This document shows positions 1,971 through 24,235 of a DNA stretch of 64,000 bases, piece by piece. Below the pieces are notes generated by a model. That model saw only the letters and a program-made list of their open reading frames with translations. It was not told the origin of the DNA and ran no database searches. Each line of letters starts with the position of its first letter. Position 1 is the stretch's first letter. Where the stretch lies: assembly GCA_024653345.1 (NCBI GenBank), contig JANLFV010000003.1:1-64000 (forward strand), written 5' to 3'. A program made the translations under genes and the position numbers. This DNA is from Candidatus Acetothermia bacterium. GTDB taxonomy: Bacteria > Bipolaricaulota > Bipolaricaulia > RBG-16-55-9 > JANLFV01.

Positions 1971-4136
1971 TCAGAGCCCCGGGTCGACATCGATCTTGAC
2001 TCCCTCCCGGCCGAGGGCCTCCAAGCCAGCCCTGACGGCCTGGTGCAAGGCTGCTCGATCCTTCCCCTTCAGCAACAACTGCCATTGGTAGCGACCCCGG
2101 ACGCGCGCCGGTAGGCCCGCGACCGGGCCGAGAACCTCCAGCCCGTCGGCTAAGAGGCCCTTCCATCGCTCGGCCTGCTCCTCTGCTCGCGCCCGATCGG
2201 CCCCCTCGACCGTCAGCTGGATCAGCTCTGTGAACGGCGGGTAGCCCAGCTCCTGGCGGAAGCGGAGCTCCTGATCGTAGAACTTGGCGTAATCCTGCGC
2301 GGCCGCCGCCTGAATTGCGTAGTGCTCCGGATGGTAGGTCTGGATGAGGACCTCCCCGCCCTTCGGTCCCCGCCCGGCCCGGCCCGCGGCCTGGGAGATC
2401 AGTTGGAAGGCCCGCTCGCCCGCGCGGAAGCCCGGCAGGTCCAGCGTTGTGTCCGCGGAGACGATCCCCACCAGGGTCACATTGGGGAAGTCCAGGCCCA
2501 CCCCGATCATCTGGGTCCCGAAGAGGATCGCGATCTTCCCCTGGCGGAAGGCCTCAAGAATCGGGCCGTGCTCACCTCGCCGGACGGCGTCCGAGTCCAT
2601 CCGGCGGACGACTGCCGCGGGAAAGAGCCGCTCGAGCTCGAGCTCGACCTGCTCCGTCCCCAGGCCGAGGAAAAGAAGCTCGCTCGAGCCGCACCGCCGG
2701 CAGCGGGGATGCCTTAGAGTATACCCGCAGTAGTGGCAGAGAAGCTCCTGGGCGCGGAGGTGATAGACCAGCGGGATCTGGCAGCGCGGGCAGCGGATCA
2801 CCGCCCCGCACTTCCGGCAGAGCGCGGTCGAGAAGCCCCGCCGATTGAGAAGGAGGATCATCTGCTCGCCCCGGGCAAGCCGACTCGCGATGGCCTCCCT
2901 CAGCCTCTTGCTCAGGACGGTCGAGGGCCGCTCGCCCCGCATATCGATGATCTCAACCTCCGGCGCCCCCACGCCGACCACCCGCTCCCGCAGCTCGAGG
3001 AGCTCGAACTCCCCCTGCTGCGCGCAATAGTAGCTCTCGAGGGTCGGTGTCGCGGTCCCGAGGATGACCGTGGCTCGGCTCAGCTGTGCGCGCTTCCGGG
3101 CGACTTCGCGGAGATGATAGCGCGGGGCCGGCTCATCTTGCTTGTAGGTCGGCTCATGCTCCTCGTCGACGACGATCAGCCCCAGGTTGCGGAACGGGGC
3201 GAAGATCGCGGCACGGACGCCGATCACCAGCCTCGCCTCTCCCCGGACCATCCTCGCCCACTGCCGGGCAAGCTCCGCGGCAGTCAGTCCTGAATGATAC
3301 ACAGCAATCTGCTCGCCGAAACGGTGCCTGAACCGGGCGACGAGCTGGGGGGTGAGCGAAATCTCGGGCACGACAATGATCGCCTCCCTTCCCAGCGCGA
3401 GGGCCCTTGCCGCGGCCTGCATGTAGATCTCCGTCTTCCCGCTGCCGTTCACCCCGTGAAGGAGGAATGTCTTTGCCGCCGTCGTTTCGAGGGCTCTGAT
3501 CACTCGAGAGAGGGCTGCCTGCTGCTCGCCCATCAGCTCGACCTGGGAAGGCGGCTCATGGAAGTCGCGGGCGGGAGGACCCGAGGCCGGCTCGATCGCC
3601 AGTAGGCCCTTCGTTTCCAGGCTCCTCAAGACGGCCCTCGTGCAGCCGGCCGCTGCGAGAAGCTCCTGCTCGCTCGGGGCCGAGGCCAGGCGGAGGAGGG
3701 TCTGGAGGAGGACCCGTTGCTGGGGCCCTCTCAAGCCTTCGAGCTGGGCGAGGGCCGCTTCCAGGCTCACCCCCAGCTTCACATATCTCGCAGTCCGGCC
3801 AGGCCGGCCCCCAACGCGCACCTGCTTGGGGACGAGCCCCTTGAGGACGATCCCCAGCGGGGTCAGATAATACTCGGAAAGCCAGCGGGCCAGCTCCAGG
3901 CGCTGACCGTCGAGGACCGGCTCAGGGTCGAGGATCTCGAGGAGCGGCTGCAGCTCGCCCTCATATCCGCTCCGCTCCTTAAGGCCGATAAGGAAGCCCT
4001 CGACGGCCTTTCCACGGAAGCTGACGCGCACCCGCTTCCCGACCTCGGCCTCCTTGAGGAAGAGCGGAAGGACTCGGTAATCGAAGGTCCGATCGGCATT
4101 GACCGGGAGGGCCACCTCGGCGACCGCTCGTTCCAT
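1971..4136 (-). CDS. priA: Primosomal protein N', replication-restart helicase PriA
   Basis: PriA reloads the replisome at stalled forks as a 3'-5' superfamily 2 DNA helicase. The 721-residue product is close to the usual length. It has the N-terminal 3'-DNA-binding domain (about residues 1-110), Walker A GVNGSGKT (about 228-235), the DEEH box (about 324-327), the aromatic-rich loop following it (YKQDEPAPRYH), and two Zn-binding clusters of paired Cys (about 440-452 and 467-482, CRKC, CPRC, CHYC, CRRC) inserted in the helicase core. It is transcribed away from the MBL-fold gene behind it, whose stop lies 45 bases upstream, and a TTGGCC-17-TAGATT promoter ends 9 bases before the ATG, so the mRNA is probably leaderless. 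It converges on the beta-helix gene. Confidence 0.97.
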   Translation of the reverse strand: MERAVAEVALPVNADRTFDYRVLPLFLKEAEVGKRVRVSFRGKAVEGFLIGLKERSGYEGELQPLLEILDPEPVLDGQRLELARWLSEYYLTPLGIVLKGLVPKQVRVGGRPGRTARYVKLGVSLEAALAQLEGLRGPQQRVLLQTLLRLASAPSEQELLAAAGCTRAVLRSLETKGLLAIEPASGPPARDFHEPPSQVELMGEQQAALSRVIRALETTAAKTFLLHGVNGSGKTEIYMQAAARALALGREAIIVVPEISLTPQLVARFRHRFGEQIAVYHSGLTAAELARQWARMVRGEARLVIGVRAAIFAPFRNLGLIVVDEEHEPTYKQDEPAPRYHLREVARKRAQLSRATVILGTATPTLESYYCAQQGEFELLELRERVVGVGAPEVEIIDMRGERPSTVLSKRLREAIASRLARGEQMILLLNRRGFSTALCRKCGAVIRCPRCQIPLVYHLRAQELLCHYCGYTLRHPRCRRCGSSELLFLGLGTEQVELELERLFPAAVVRRMDSDAVRRGEHGPILEAFRQGKIAILFGTQMIGVGLDFPNVTLVGIVSADTTLDLPGFRAGERAFQLISQAAGRAGRGPKGGEVLIQTYHPEHYAIQAAAAQDYAKFYDQELRFRQELGYPPFTELIQLTVEGADRARAEEQAERWKGLLADGLEVLGPVAGLPARVRGRYQWQLLLKGKDRAALHQAVRAGLEALGREGVKIDVDPGL

Positions 4137-4145
4137 CCCAATCAG

Positions 4146-4174
4146 AATCTACCCCATCTCGCCCCGGCGGCCAA
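4146..4174 (-). promoter_or_regulatory. Predicted leaderless promoter of priA
   Basis: On the minus strand TTGGCC (4169-4174), a 17-base spacer and TAGATT (4146-4151) lie directly before priA; only 9 bases separate the -10 from the ATG at 4136. A start site at the usual distance from the -10 would fall at or next to the ATG. There is no Shine-Dalgarno site. Confidence 0.55.
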
Positions 4175-4181
4175 GAGGAGC

Positions 4182-5087
4182 CTAACTCCGATCGAGATAC
4201 TGGAGAACCCCCTGAGCATTCATGGTGATCTCGTGCTCGACCATCTGCGGGTCGTAGAGCCCCTCCAGGAACGGGCCATACTCCTCGAGGAGGGCCTGCT
4301 TGACCGCCCCATCGCCCCTGAGCTGCTTCCGGAGGCTGCGGATCTCCTCCACCCAGTCTTGGAGGAGCTTGGCGTATGTCTGGAGCATTGCCGCCGGTCG
4401 ATCATGCTCCCCGAAGTGAGTGTAGAGCAGCCGCTCCGGCTTCAGCGCCCGGAGGAGTTGGACTGACTCCAGGCTCCGCTCGAGATCGAAGGACGGCGGA
4501 GGGGTGGTCGGGAGGAGCCGATCTGCCTCAGGCCAGTAGATCCCGGCGGCATCGCCGGTGAAGAGGCTGCGGGTCTTCTGCTCGAAGAAGCAGAGGTGGT
4601 GGGGCGCGTGGCCGGGGGTGGCGATCGCTCTTATCTGGAAGCCCTCGCCGAGGCTGAAGAGTTCCCCGCCCTCCAGCTCGAGGAGCCGCTCTCGCGGGAT
4701 CGGGGCGGCTTGGCCGTAGTGGCAGAACATCGGGCCGGTGGCGTCGCGGACGCTCTTCACCAGGTAGGCGGGCTTGACCAAGTGCTTCGCGCCGCGCTCG
4801 TGGGCCGCGACGGTCGCGTTCGGACAGGCCTGGGCTAGCGGGCCGGCCCCGCCGGCGTGGTCGAGGTGGACATGGCTCACCAGGATGAAGCCCACTTCAT
4901 CTGGGGAGAGCCCCAGCTCTGCCAGGGCACGCAAGATCCGCGGGGCGGAGTAGGAGAGGCCCGTCTCGACGATCGCCGCGACGGGGGCATCAACGATGTA
5001 GGCCGCCCCGTAGCCTTCCAGGCCGAACTGGTTCGTGTCGACAAGGTAGATTCCGCCAAGACCCTCAAGCTCGCGCGCGTATTCCAT
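4182..5087 (-). CDS. MBL-fold metallo-hydrolase
   Basis: This is a cytoplasmic beta-lactamase-fold hydrolase with the metal signature HVHLDH (about residue 73 onward), a distal TPGHAPHH, the GDA ligand (FTGDAAG) and a late THFGEH. The arrangement resembles the glyoxalase-II/lactonase-like branch, but the substrate cannot be read from the sequence. About 90 C-terminal residues after the last metal ligand are mostly helical (DWVEEIRSLRKQLRG) and may close the active site. The ATG at 5087 is preferred over one seven codons upstream because GGAGG stands 8 bases before it. It lies between nudix-rpoB upstream and priA downstream on the same strand. Confidence 0.85.
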   Translation of the reverse strand: MEYARELEGLGGIYLVDTNQFGLEGYGAAYIVDAPVAAIVETGLSYSAPRILRALAELGLSPDEVGFILVSHVHLDHAGGAGPLAQACPNATVAAHERGAKHLVKPAYLVKSVRDATGPMFCHYGQAAPIPRERLLELEGGELFSLGEGFQIRAIATPGHAPHHLCFFEQKTRSLFTGDAAGIYWPEADRLLPTTPPPSFDLERSLESVQLLRALKPERLLYTHFGEHDRPAAMLQTYAKLLQDWVEEIRSLRKQLRGDGAVKQALLEEYGPFLEGLYDPQMVEHEITMNAQGVLQYLDRS

Positions 5088-5236
5088 CTCTTCCACCTCC
5101 AGGCGCAAGCTCCATGATAGGCCGCGCGGGACGCTGGGGCAAGCTCCTCCGATGGTAGGTGGCGTCGATCAGGCAGGACCTAGCGCGGTCGGCCTCGCCA
5201 GCGCCCTGGCAAGCACGGCATCAGCGAGTGCCCCGC

Positions 5237-5659
5237 TCAGCCGGCCTCGTTCAGGAACTGCTCCGCCTGGCGGAGGAGCCACTTGCTGTTGTCGTAGGTG
5301 AGGCGGGCCAGGGCCTCTTGGTAGCTGAGCCAGGCGAAGCCCGCGTGCTCGGGCGAGAGACGGACATCTTCCTCCTCGGTCTCACCGAGGAAGTAGATGA
5401 CCCTCTTCTGCACGGGCTGGCCTTCCCGGGCCAGGCCGTATTCGATCAGCCCTTGGAACCCTGGAACGAGCCTCGTGGAGCGGATCTGGGTCTCCTCGCG
5501 CAGCTCCCGACAGGCCGCCTCCTTGAGGTCCTCGTCGCGCTCGATCTGCCCCTTGGGGAAGGCCCAGTGGCCTTCGGAGTGCTGGAGGAGAAGATACCTT
5601 CGTCCCTCCGGCGCCCGCCGGAAGAGAATGACCCCTGCAGACCACTCTTCTTGGGCCAT
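5237..5659 (-). CDS. Nudix hydrolase, Ap4A-hydrolase-like
   Basis: The 140-residue protein is a single Nudix domain. The Nudix box is GQIERDEDLKEAACRELREE followed by TQI, so all catalytic glutamates of REXXEE are present while the Gly usually found after EE is Thr-Gln here. The opening SAGVILFRR and the WAFPKGQIE segment resemble bacterial and NUDT2-type diadenosine-tetraphosphate hydrolases, which remove Ap4A and related nucleotides; the exact substrate is inferred. The gene begins 31 bases after the stop of rpoB, in the position where rpoC is normally found, and has no clear ribosome binding site. Confidence 0.88.
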   Translation of the reverse strand: MAQEEWSAGVILFRRAPEGRRYLLLQHSEGHWAFPKGQIERDEDLKEAACRELREETQIRSTRLVPGFQGLIEYGLAREGQPVQKRVIYFLGETEEEDVRLSPEHAGFAWLSYQEALARLTYDNSKWLLRQAEQFLNEAG

Positions 5660-5690
5660 CGGCCGTCAGCTGTCCGCTGTCCGGTGACAG

Positions 5691-9068
<3,378 letters not shown>

Positions 9069-20797: not shown

Positions 20798-23700
20798 ATG
20801 AAGACCATCGACCGGTATCTTCTGCGCGAGCTGGCCTTCCCCTTCATCATCGCCCTCGTTGGCTTCCTCATCTTCATCCTGCTCAACCTGATCCTCGGGC
20901 TGAGGGACTTCATGCTCGACCGGTCGATCGGCCTCGGGACGATCCTCAGGCTCCTGAGCTATCAGCTCCCCTTCTTCCTCGTCCTCTCGCTTCCCGTGGC
21001 CACGCTCTTCGCCATCTTCCTCGCCTTAGGCAGGCTCGCGCACGATCGCGAGATCATCGCCCTGCAGGCGAGCGGGATCTCCCTGAAGAGGATCGTCCTC
21101 CCCATCCTCATCCTGAGCCTGGTCATCAGCGCCTTCGACCTCTTCCTCAACGACCGAATGGTCCCCTGGGCTAACTACCAATACCAGAGCCTCATCCGCC
21201 AGCTGATCCTCCGCCGGTCCACGCCACAGATCCAGGACAATACCTTCTTCAAGGACTCTTCGGGCCGATTCTTCTATGTCAAGCACTACGACCGCCGAAC
21301 CGGGCAGCTCGAGGGGATCATGGTCTACGACATGGCGGGGGCCGAATACCTCCCCGATCTAGGCGGCCGCTACCCCAATGTGATCGTCGCCGAGCAGGGG
21401 AGCTGGGACGGGGAGGTCTGGCTGCTCCAGGACGGCGTGATCCACAGATACGACGACCGGGGCCATCTGCAGTATGAGATGCGGTTCGCCACGCTCGCGA
21501 TCAACGTCGGCGCGGGCCTGGAGCAGCTCTTCCTCACTCAGCGGACGCCGCAGGAGATGAGCCTCTCCGAGCTGGCCGAGAAGATCCGGGTCCTGAAAGA
21601 GAGCGGCCTCCAGGCCGAGGGGCTGATCGTGGAGTTCCACTCGAAGATCTCCATCCCGCTTGCCGGGTTCATCTTCGCCCTCTTCGGAGCCCCGCTCAGC
21701 CTGATCTTCTCCGCGCGGAGCCGCGCGGCGGGGATCGTGCTCGGGGTCCTCTTCGTCGGCCTCTTCCAGGGGAGCCTCATCTGGAGCGAGACCCTGGGGA
21801 AGCGGGGGATCATCCCCCCGGCCCTCTCCGCCTGGCTCCCGAACCTCATCTTCGGGGGCCTCGGGCTCGCGCTCTTCCTGGTCATGGACCGGGCGAGCCA
21901 GCTCGACCTGCGGGAGCGGCTCCGCCGCGCACTCCGGCTCCACCTCATCCTGGGAGCGATCCTCGCGCTCCTCGGGGGCAGCGGCCTGGCGGCGGAGAGG
22001 CCGAGGCTGGAGCTATCGGCCGATCGGCTCACCATCTCCGAGGACTGGAGCAGGGTGAGCACCACCGGCCAGGTTCTAGCCCAATACGGCGAGGGCTCGA
22101 TCAGGGCCGAATCGCTGGAGCTGGCCCGCGACGGCCGCCAGTGGGAGCTCCGGGCGCGGGGCGGGATCAGGCTCTCCCTCGGCGAGCTGGAGGCCGAGGG
22201 GAGCGAACTCGTTGCAATGCTGGAACAGGACGATGCGGGCGGGCTCAGTCTGCGGGAGGCCGAGTTCTCCGGGCACGGCCCCGACCGTTCCAATGAGGAG
22301 TTGGACCGAGCGGAGGTCGGGAAGGCCCGGATCGCCTACCGAGGCGGGCGGCTCGCGGCGGAAGAGATCAAGCTGACAAGAGCCGCGAGCGAGGAAGAGA
22401 GCTGGCTGGCCGAGGCCCGCGGAGGGGTGGTCCTGGAAGAGGAGCGGCAGAGCACCACCGCGGAGGAGCTCAAGCTCCGGTTCACCTTGAAGGACGAGGC
22501 ATTCCATGCCGAGGTCGCGGAGCTCGAGGCCTTCGCCGGCGAGGGCAGCTTCGTCAACGCTAGAGGAGAGGAGCACCTCCTGCGCTACCAGGGGAGGCGG
22601 GCCACGCTCTCCTTCGACGCCGAGAACGAGATCTCGCTACTGAACATCAGGACCGGCGACTTCACCACTTGCTCCTGCAGCGCCAGCATCGAGAAGGAGA
22701 GCTACTCCATCAGTGCTGACCGGCTTCTGGTCTTCTCCGATGACCTGCTGGTCGCCACGAACATCACGCTCCGGGCCTTTGGGGTCCCGATCTTCTGGGC
22801 CCCGCTCTACCTGGCCCCACTGAAGGAGGAGCAGAAGAGCCCCTTCCTCCCGGAGATCGGGCGAAGCGCCCTCCGCGGCTGGTATGCGAAGTGGCGGCTC
22901 CCGTTCATCTTGAGCGAGAGGACCTACGGCTCCGTGCTGCTCGACTACTTCAACCGCTACCGGCAGTTGGGGAGCGGGCTTGATCTGAACTTCAACATGC
23001 TGGGCCACATCGGCTCGCTCCATCTCTACAAGATCTTCGGCGAGCTGGGGCTGCTCGAGCTCGCCCTCAGCGATCGCGCCGAGCTCCCTCGAGGGGTAAT
23101 GCTCAGCCTTGCGGCCGACTATCGCAGCCAGGTCGAGGCGGAGGCCGAAGGCCAGCACATGGGCTATCAAGCCCAGCTTTCCGGCTCGCGGGCCGACTGG
23201 GGCTGGGCCCTCAACTTCAGCCAGGACCAGTATGTAGGCATCCCGGCGGAGGGCGAAGAGATCAGGTATCGCGCGCTCGTGCGCCTGCCCGAGCTAGCGC
23301 TGAGCCACAGAGTCCAGCGGCTCGGGCCACTCGGCTACTCCCTCAGCTTCCAGTGGGGGCGGTATCAGGAGCGGAAGCTGGATGGCACTCAGCTCGAAGG
23401 GACCCGATTTGCCGGGCTGGTCAGCCTCGGGCTGGAAGGGATCTCCCTCCACGAGGGCAAGCTGAGCCTCCGCCCCTCGGCGAGCTATCAGGTCTCATTC
23501 TACGGCTCGACGCGGATGGAGACGCTCTCGGCCGCGACGAGCCTGAGCCTCCTCCCCCTGGAGAGGCTCTCGGTCTCATTAGCCCATAGCTACCGGCTGG
23601 TGCGCGGCTCGAGCCCCTTCGCCTTCGATACCCAGATGCAGCTGAATCGCCTCGACCTGCGAGGGGCCTGGAGCTCGCAGACCCTCCAGGGGAACCTCGC

Positions 23701-24235
23701 CACCAGCTACGACTTGGAGAAGGCGAGCTTCGACCCGCTCAGCTTGGGCTTGAACTACCGCCTCGGCCTCGGCAGGACGACGATGAGGCTCAGCTATGAT
23801 CTGAACCGGGGCCAGCTCCAGCAAGCCACGATCCAACAGACCCTGGCGCGCGAGGGCTGGTCCTTCTCTGCCGAGACGGGCTACAATTTCGTCAGCAAGC
23901 AGTTCTCGGACTTGATCGCCAAGCTCGCGCTCGAGCGGTTCAAGATCGGCCTCCGCTATGACCTCAATAGTCTCCTCCTCAAGCGGATCAACTCCGAGGT
24001 ATCGCTCGAGCTGGGGGAGGACTGGCGGCTCGCGCTCGCCGGGGAATATGACCTGGGGACGGGGCAGCTCGGCGCGTTCCAGTATGGCGTGGTGCGGAGC
24101 TTCTGCCACAACTGCTGGGAGATCGGGCTCTACGGCGAGCGGGGGCGGGTCTGGCTCCAGGCGAAGATCAATGCCTTCCCGACGGCCACGATCAAGTATT
24201 CCCCGACCGACCAGGAGCTGGCCTTCGGGGAGTAG
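20798..24235 (+). CDS. LptF/LptG permease fused to an LptD-like outer-membrane protein
   Basis: One frame of 1145 residues. Residues 1-365 are a complete YjgP/YjgQ (LptF/G) permease: three membrane helices, a periplasmic domain (about 120-275), three more helices ending GGLGLALFLV. Residues 373-399 (RERLRRALRLHLILGAILAL, then LGGSGLAAE) look like a signal peptide with an AxA-type site. From 400 follows an LptA/OstA-like beta-jellyroll (LELSADRL, VSTTGQVLAQYGEG), then an LptD-type region (DFTTCSCSAS, FGVPIFWAPLYLAP, SPFLPEIGRS, about 620-690) and a barrel with strands of alternating polarity to the C-terminus. Cys625/627 and Cys1103/1106 match the N- and C-terminal cysteines that LptD pairs as disulfides. 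Normally LptF/G and LptD are separate proteins. No LptB or second permease gene is nearby. Confidence 0.88.
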   Translation: MKTIDRYLLRELAFPFIIALVGFLIFILLNLILGLRDFMLDRSIGLGTILRLLSYQLPFFLVLSLPVATLFAIFLALGRLAHDREIIALQASGISLKRIVLPILILSLVISAFDLFLNDRMVPWANYQYQSLIRQLILRRSTPQIQDNTFFKDSSGRFFYVKHYDRRTGQLEGIMVYDMAGAEYLPDLGGRYPNVIVAEQGSWDGEVWLLQDGVIHRYDDRGHLQYEMRFATLAINVGAGLEQLFLTQRTPQEMSLSELAEKIRVLKESGLQAEGLIVEFHSKISIPLAGFIFALFGAPLSLIFSARSRAAGIVLGVLFVGLFQGSLIWSETLGKRGIIPPALSAWLPNLIFGGLGLALFLVMDRASQLDLRERLRRALRLHLILGAILALLGGSGLAAERPRLELSADRLTISEDWSRVSTTGQVLAQYGEGSIRAESLELARDGRQWELRARGGIRLSLGELEAEGSELVAMLEQDDAGGLSLREAEFSGHGPDRSNEELDRAEVGKARIAYRGGRLAAEEIKLTRAASEEESWLAEARGGVVLEEERQSTTAEELKLRFTLKDEAFHAEVAELEAFAGEGSFVNARGEEHLLRYQGRRATLSFDAENEISLLNIRTGDFTTCSCSASIEKESYSISADRLLVFSDDLLVATNITLRAFGVPIFWAPLYLAPLKEEQKSPFLPEIGRSALRGWYAKWRLPFILSERTYGSVLLDYFNRYRQLGSGLDLNFNMLGHIGSLHLYKIFGELGLLELALSDRAELPRGVMLSLAADYRSQVEAEAEGQHMGYQAQLSGSRADWGWALNFSQDQYVGIPAEGEEIRYRALVRLPELALSHRVQRLGPLGYSLSFQWGRYQERKLDGTQLEGTRFAGLVSLGLEGISLHEGKLSLRPSASYQVSFYGSTRMETLSAATSLSLLPLERLSVSLAHSYRLVRGSSPFAFDTQMQLNRLDLRGAWSSQTLQGNLATSYDLEKASFDPLSLGLNYRLGLGRTTMRLSYDLNRGQLQQATIQQTLAREGWSFSAETGYNFVSKQFSDLIAKLALERFKIGLRYDLNSLLLKRINSEVSLELGEDWRLALAGEYDLGTGQLGAFQYGVVRSFCHNCWEIGLYGERGRVWLQAKINAFPTATIKYSPTDQELAFGE

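Follow-up and report, generated by a model that had tools for sequence, protein, structure and literature searches.

A close counterpart of the locus reported here is the LptB2FGC-A-DE bridge of the E. coli type, with which it shares LptF/G, LptC, LptB and LptD, homologous by sequence or fold. It departs from that bridge in having one LptF/G gene instead of two, in the fusion of LptD behind LptF/G through a putative internal signal peptide, in the lack of a separate LptA as judged by PF03968, and in the lack of LpxC (60 + 103 genomes). A polytopic membrane protein joined to an exported protein by an internal signal sequence is also found in FbcH, the cytochrome b/c1 precursor of Bradyrhizobium japonicum, in which signal peptidase presumably cuts this sequence; both products of FbcH belong to the inner membrane, however, whereas the second product here would be an outer-membrane barrel, and the protein families are unrelated. 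For the elongated MlaD of Veillonella parvula, too, a single gene encodes a TM part for the inner membrane and a beta barrel for the outer one, but its authors propose a single uncut chain with a helical spacer of about 150 residues (PMC10665443), whereas LptF/G-LptD has a cleavage-like site and, in its model, a short linker. A single LptF/G homologue is also reported from the Negativicutes and Halanaerobiales, which differ in that the authors found no LptD there and in that LPS genes are present (PMC5007114). The same source counts the Thermotogae with those phyla that have no capacity to encode LPS (PMC5007114), another states that they are without nearly all of the outer-membrane genes it studied, bamA excepted (PMC8871954), and Ca. 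Bipolaricaulis has been described as having no LPS-associated genes, with the question of mono- versus diderm left undecided (PMC6092417). A search by titles and abstract openings found no published report of an LptF/G-LptD fusion.

The window (the whole stretch of 64,000 nucleotides that was analysed) contains a single stop-free frame at 20798-24235 on the forward strand, on which all parts of this gene given below also lie, and its 1145 aa comprise an LptF/G permease, a hydrophobic segment 7 and LptD (approximately residues 400-1145). The permease (20798..21880; residues 1-361) has six TM helices and a periplasmic beta domain at residues 149-236, the fold of the PF03739 family, which it matches over residues 6-361 (Pfam; E 7.6e-92; 308.5 bits against a curated cut-off of 27.9). 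An AF2 model built from 42 homologues (mean pLDDT 88, pTM 0.60) has helices 3 and 4 flanking this beta domain and a helix seven at residues 371-391, with pLDDT below 50 at the junction (385-400), one of two such stretches. Beyond it come the N-terminal periplasmic beta domain of LptD (21995..22666; residues 400-623), modelled as about 14 strands that begin at residue 404 and end at 623, and then the hinge and a large outer-membrane beta barrel (22667..24232; residues 624-1145) that runs to the C-terminus, the order of parts of the LptD family fold. The assignment of the latter rests on Foldseek, VIA-align, profile and cysteine evidence. The top Foldseek match of the protein was LptD (8h1r_A, E 3.4e-24), followed by LptG (6mjp_G, E 2e-14); VIA-align superposed residues 3-362 on LptF (Z 24.7, 242 aligned, rmsd 3.1) and residues 669-1145 on LptD (Z 18.1, 424 aligned, rmsd 3.6); and a profile run against PDB sequences recovered LptF/G (E 1.3e-20) and LptD 8h1r (E 4.6e-4). 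Disulfides are a hallmark of LptD, and across 42 aligned rows there is no variation at Cys625 or Cys1106 and hardly any at Cys627. The Pfam LptD_N model scored below its cut-off in the window protein (residues 407-455, E 0.18, 12.5 bits against 20.4) and above it in 11 of the 60 relatives.

The two halves are joined by a segment that resembles a Sec signal peptide, with a basic loop, a short hydrophobic core and small residues at -3/-1. A signal-peptide-like segment had been claimed for this joint by the sequence-only reading, and its parts were all found, with exact coordinates, within one open frame, which confirms that observation. The basic cytoplasmic loop, or n-region (21887..21943; residues 364-382), reads DRASQLDLRERLRRALRLH and carries charges of +6/-3; the hydrophobic core, or h-region, which is also the seventh membrane segment, occupies 21944..21976 (residues 383-393); and the c-region GSGLAA (21977..21994; residues 394-399) contains the predicted signal peptidase I site. 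Two candidate sites are predicted, past Ala398 (GLA-AE) or past Ala399 (LAA-ER), the codon of Glu400 being 21995-21997.

The fusion is nearly universal in the Bipolaricaulota, the window's phylum, and in the Thermotogota, with the order of parts conserved. A search of 100 Bipolaricaulota genomes found LptF/G in 90, of which 78 had it in frames of at least 700 aa (counted by eye), the shorter 12 including two splits and contig ends; PF03739 was matched in 100 of 103 Thermotogota genomes, 91 of them with a best-match frame of at least 700 aa (also by eye), and seven of eight Thermotogota loci were fused. LptF/G is normally single-copy, with one PF03739 gene above cut-off per genome, and the named relatives (23 loci) are distributed over Bipolaricaulota, Fraserbacteria, Acetothermia and Thermotogota. 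The feature was first described in one protein, and its reach is far wider, as it is common to two phyla. An assembly or sequencing artefact might be suspected in a genome that is a 31-contig draft, and has a negligible probability given that 49 of the 60 relatives, drawn from numerous assemblies, carry the same fusion and that long frames prevail in the counts above; an artefact of a single assembly was rejected, the fusion being seen across many assemblies and both phyla. In the tree, the 39 Thermotogota rows group as a single clade next to the window's order. The split family f8 sits on long branches close to an E. coli root. One fusion event with later splits would be our guess, the root of the tree being unsure.

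The junction was compared in 60 relatives, the window's genome included, of which 49 are fused with a readable junction, two are split (L062 and L063) and nine are without a usable LptF/G. The loop ahead of the core carries on average +4.2/-1.6 charges over the 49 homologues. Lack of a predicted cleavage site in homologues had been named beforehand as a result that would refute the proposal; under a strict rule, a simple motif rule ([AGVST]-x-[AG], no Pro at +1, 2-8 residues past the core), such a site is present in 45 of the 49 junctions (shuffled tails: mean 21.4, sd 3.2, none of 1000 reaching 45), and under a loose rule in 48. The features that characterise a Sec signal peptide for signal peptidase I are present: a basic n-region, a hydrophobic core, small residues at positions -3 and -1, and a residue other than Pro at +1. 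AxA alone is found in only 14 of 49 (shuffle mean 5.8), so [AGVST]x[AG] describes the junction better; the -1 residue is Gly or Ser at several sites, and in family f7 a site can be placed with Pro at +2 rather than at +1 (e.g. GAA-GPP and ASA-APP). In the Thermotogota the strict rule finds 18 of 36 junctions, which is chance level (shuffle mean 17.6), and the loose rule all 36 (shuffle mean 28.2, 0/1000 as high). Applied to the other segments, the strict rule is satisfied in TM1 0/48, TM2 18/48, TM3 35/48, TM4 7/49, TM5 19/49 and TM6 2/49, and since TM3, a conserved true TM helix, passes this often, the rule by itself is weak and does not single out segment 7. What sets segment 7 apart is that the pattern is held on a freely varying sequence (mean pairwise identity 25%, versus 41-58% for TM1-6), together with split homologues and the similar signal peptides of BamA.

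LptD is a separate gene at the three split loci that were read. In L062 and L063 it occupies a frame of its own adjoining the permease, with a signal-peptide-like N-terminus, and in L142, from the Thermotogota, the stop of the permease ends at 4116 and the ATG of LptD follows 4 bases on, again opening a signal-peptide-like start. L142 is nested among fused genes, its nearest row in the tree being fused with support 100/100. As the split LptDs at all three loci open with such a segment, segment 7 corresponds to the signal peptide of LptD. For BamA, which was matched in 56 genomes, we took the longest open frame in 20 of these (L183-L202), and all 20 N-termini were counted, L188 and perhaps others possibly being in the wrong frame. 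Ala-Gln stands past the core in 14 of these 20 N-termini from the same phylum (read by eye); the strict rule is satisfied in 14/20 (shuffle mean 9.8, 42/1000 as high), and the loose rule in 15/20, with no excess over chance (238/1000 shuffles as high). In the window's order, Ala-Gln is found in segment 7 of 13 out of 18 proteins (shuffle mean 2.7, maximum 9), in TM4 of seven, in TM5 of four and in none of the remaining TMs. It occurs in just 14 of all 49 junctions and hence is a mark of the window's order. The Gln at +1 of BamA and of the window-order junctions recalls the Q-rule described for Bacteroidetes (PMC5837995).

Sequence and model show an LptF/G permease, a single signal-peptide-like hydrophobic segment and a complete LptD translocon within one open frame. 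Our preferred reading, to which we give a probability of roughly 0.84, is that the protein is a Sec-inserted polyprotein that would be cut by signal peptidase I past Ala398 or Ala399, releasing LptD to the outer membrane. A polyprotein-like precursor with an internal signal peptide had been suggested by the sequence-only reading, and it gains support from the sites in homologues and the N-termini of the split LptDs. The permease would be inserted co-translationally by Sec, leaving the chain in the cytoplasm past TM6, and segment 7 would open a new translocation step that takes the LptD half into the periplasm. After the cut, BAM would assemble LptD (about 746 aa) in the outer membrane, and segment 7 would remain on the permease as a seventh helix unless trimmed. 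We infer further that this seven-helix permease, the product of the sole LptF/G gene, would pair with itself as a homodimer, work with LptB and LptC and supply LptD with a glycolipid that is not classical lipid A, and that the fusion would ensure that the two ends of the bridge, in the inner and the outer membrane, are made in equal amounts.

The main rival holds that the chain stays uncut; segment 7 would then be a genuine TM helix, the seventh, that anchors the chain, and the whole protein would be a covalent bridge from inner to outer membrane. A single chain does hold both membrane ends, the unbroken nonpolar run of segment 7 (median 18) falls inside the range of TM1-6 (14-22), and one-chain bridges have been proposed for MlaD (PMC10665443), the strongest precedent for a chain that stays whole. 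An anchor has no need of the -3/-1 pattern, however, and split genes occur in both phyla. In the model, about 10 residues separate the core from the first strand, about 14 strands precede the barrel, and a long helix such as MlaD has is missing; the reach estimated from strand spacing would fall well short of a usual periplasm. We therefore consider a permanently uncut bridge unlikely. A precursor that works uncut for at least part of its life, with every permease made already joined covalently to an outer-membrane gate of its own, seems scarcely less doubtful; it would provide LPS-less diderms of two phyla with a one-gene conduit for glycolipid from the inner to the outer membrane, and cutting would then be a late assembly step.

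LptD might also, or only, be made from an internal start at the in-frame ATG of Met363 (21884..21886), as the sequence-only reading had offered, in which case its signal peptide would be an ordinary N-terminal one. This ATG is present at residue 363 in the window protein, and some ATG, GTG or TTG lies between position -3 and the core in 31 of the 49 homologues. Codon 363 is nevertheless ATG in only 3/49, the window's included, and any start codon in 13/49; no GGAG, GAGG or AGGA stands shortly upstream of the loop start codons in any of the 49, and 10/49 are without any start codon even across a wider stretch. A stop-free frame kept across two phyla would likewise be unexpected if LptD initiated independently. 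The proposed start is thus unsupported and very improbable, and internal initiation as a general mechanism was rejected for its poor conservation and the absence of a Shine-Dalgarno-like sequence.

The genomes were also searched for other parts of the processing and export pathway. Signal peptidase I (TIGR02227), the enzyme for the putative cut, was found in 51 of 60 genomes and in 46 of the 49 with a fusion (tables matched by eye), those left unmatched (G001, G030 and G053) all being drafts; the window's genome has two matches, one of them on the window's own contig just past its end (G000:C25:64229-64777). BamA-type Omp85 is encoded in 56 of 60 genomes and LptC (PF06835) in 27, including the window's own (C11:282035), where an LptB-like ATPase, named by eye from its sequence, adjoins it. 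Matches to PF03968 (11/60) are confined to the fusion or to split LptD, so that by this model no separate LptA exists. LpxC, which marks the lipid A pathway of classical LPS export, was detected in 0/60 Bipolaricaulota and 0/103 Thermotogota, and in 4 of 14 control genomes (E. coli and three others). Two phyla described as being without LPS genes keep an Lpt-type bridge, its gate hidden behind the permease gene. The presence of this LptD is at odds with one of the published descriptions and speaks for an outer membrane served by an Lpt-type route. It also raises the question of cargo, namely what is carried without lipid A. The protein would be a rare bacterial polyprotein serving two membranes, and it is open to study in culturable Thermotogota; the genera Fervidobacterium and Thermosipho are present among the loci as MAGs (L141 and L144-L146).

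A few loci depart from the common arrangement. The LptF/G-LptD gene is missing from all four genomes of genus g11 (G019, G021, G055 and G088); BamA is kept in the three that were tested, as if the entire bridge had been lost. At L177, in the Thermotogota-grouped genome G111, two unfused LptF/G genes lie in tandem (3910..5094 and 5113..6243), with no LptD adjoining. In eight other Thermotogota loci (L152, L155-L158, L162, L163 and L170) the fused frames reach 1434-1474 aa, their LptD part being about 300 aa longer than elsewhere.
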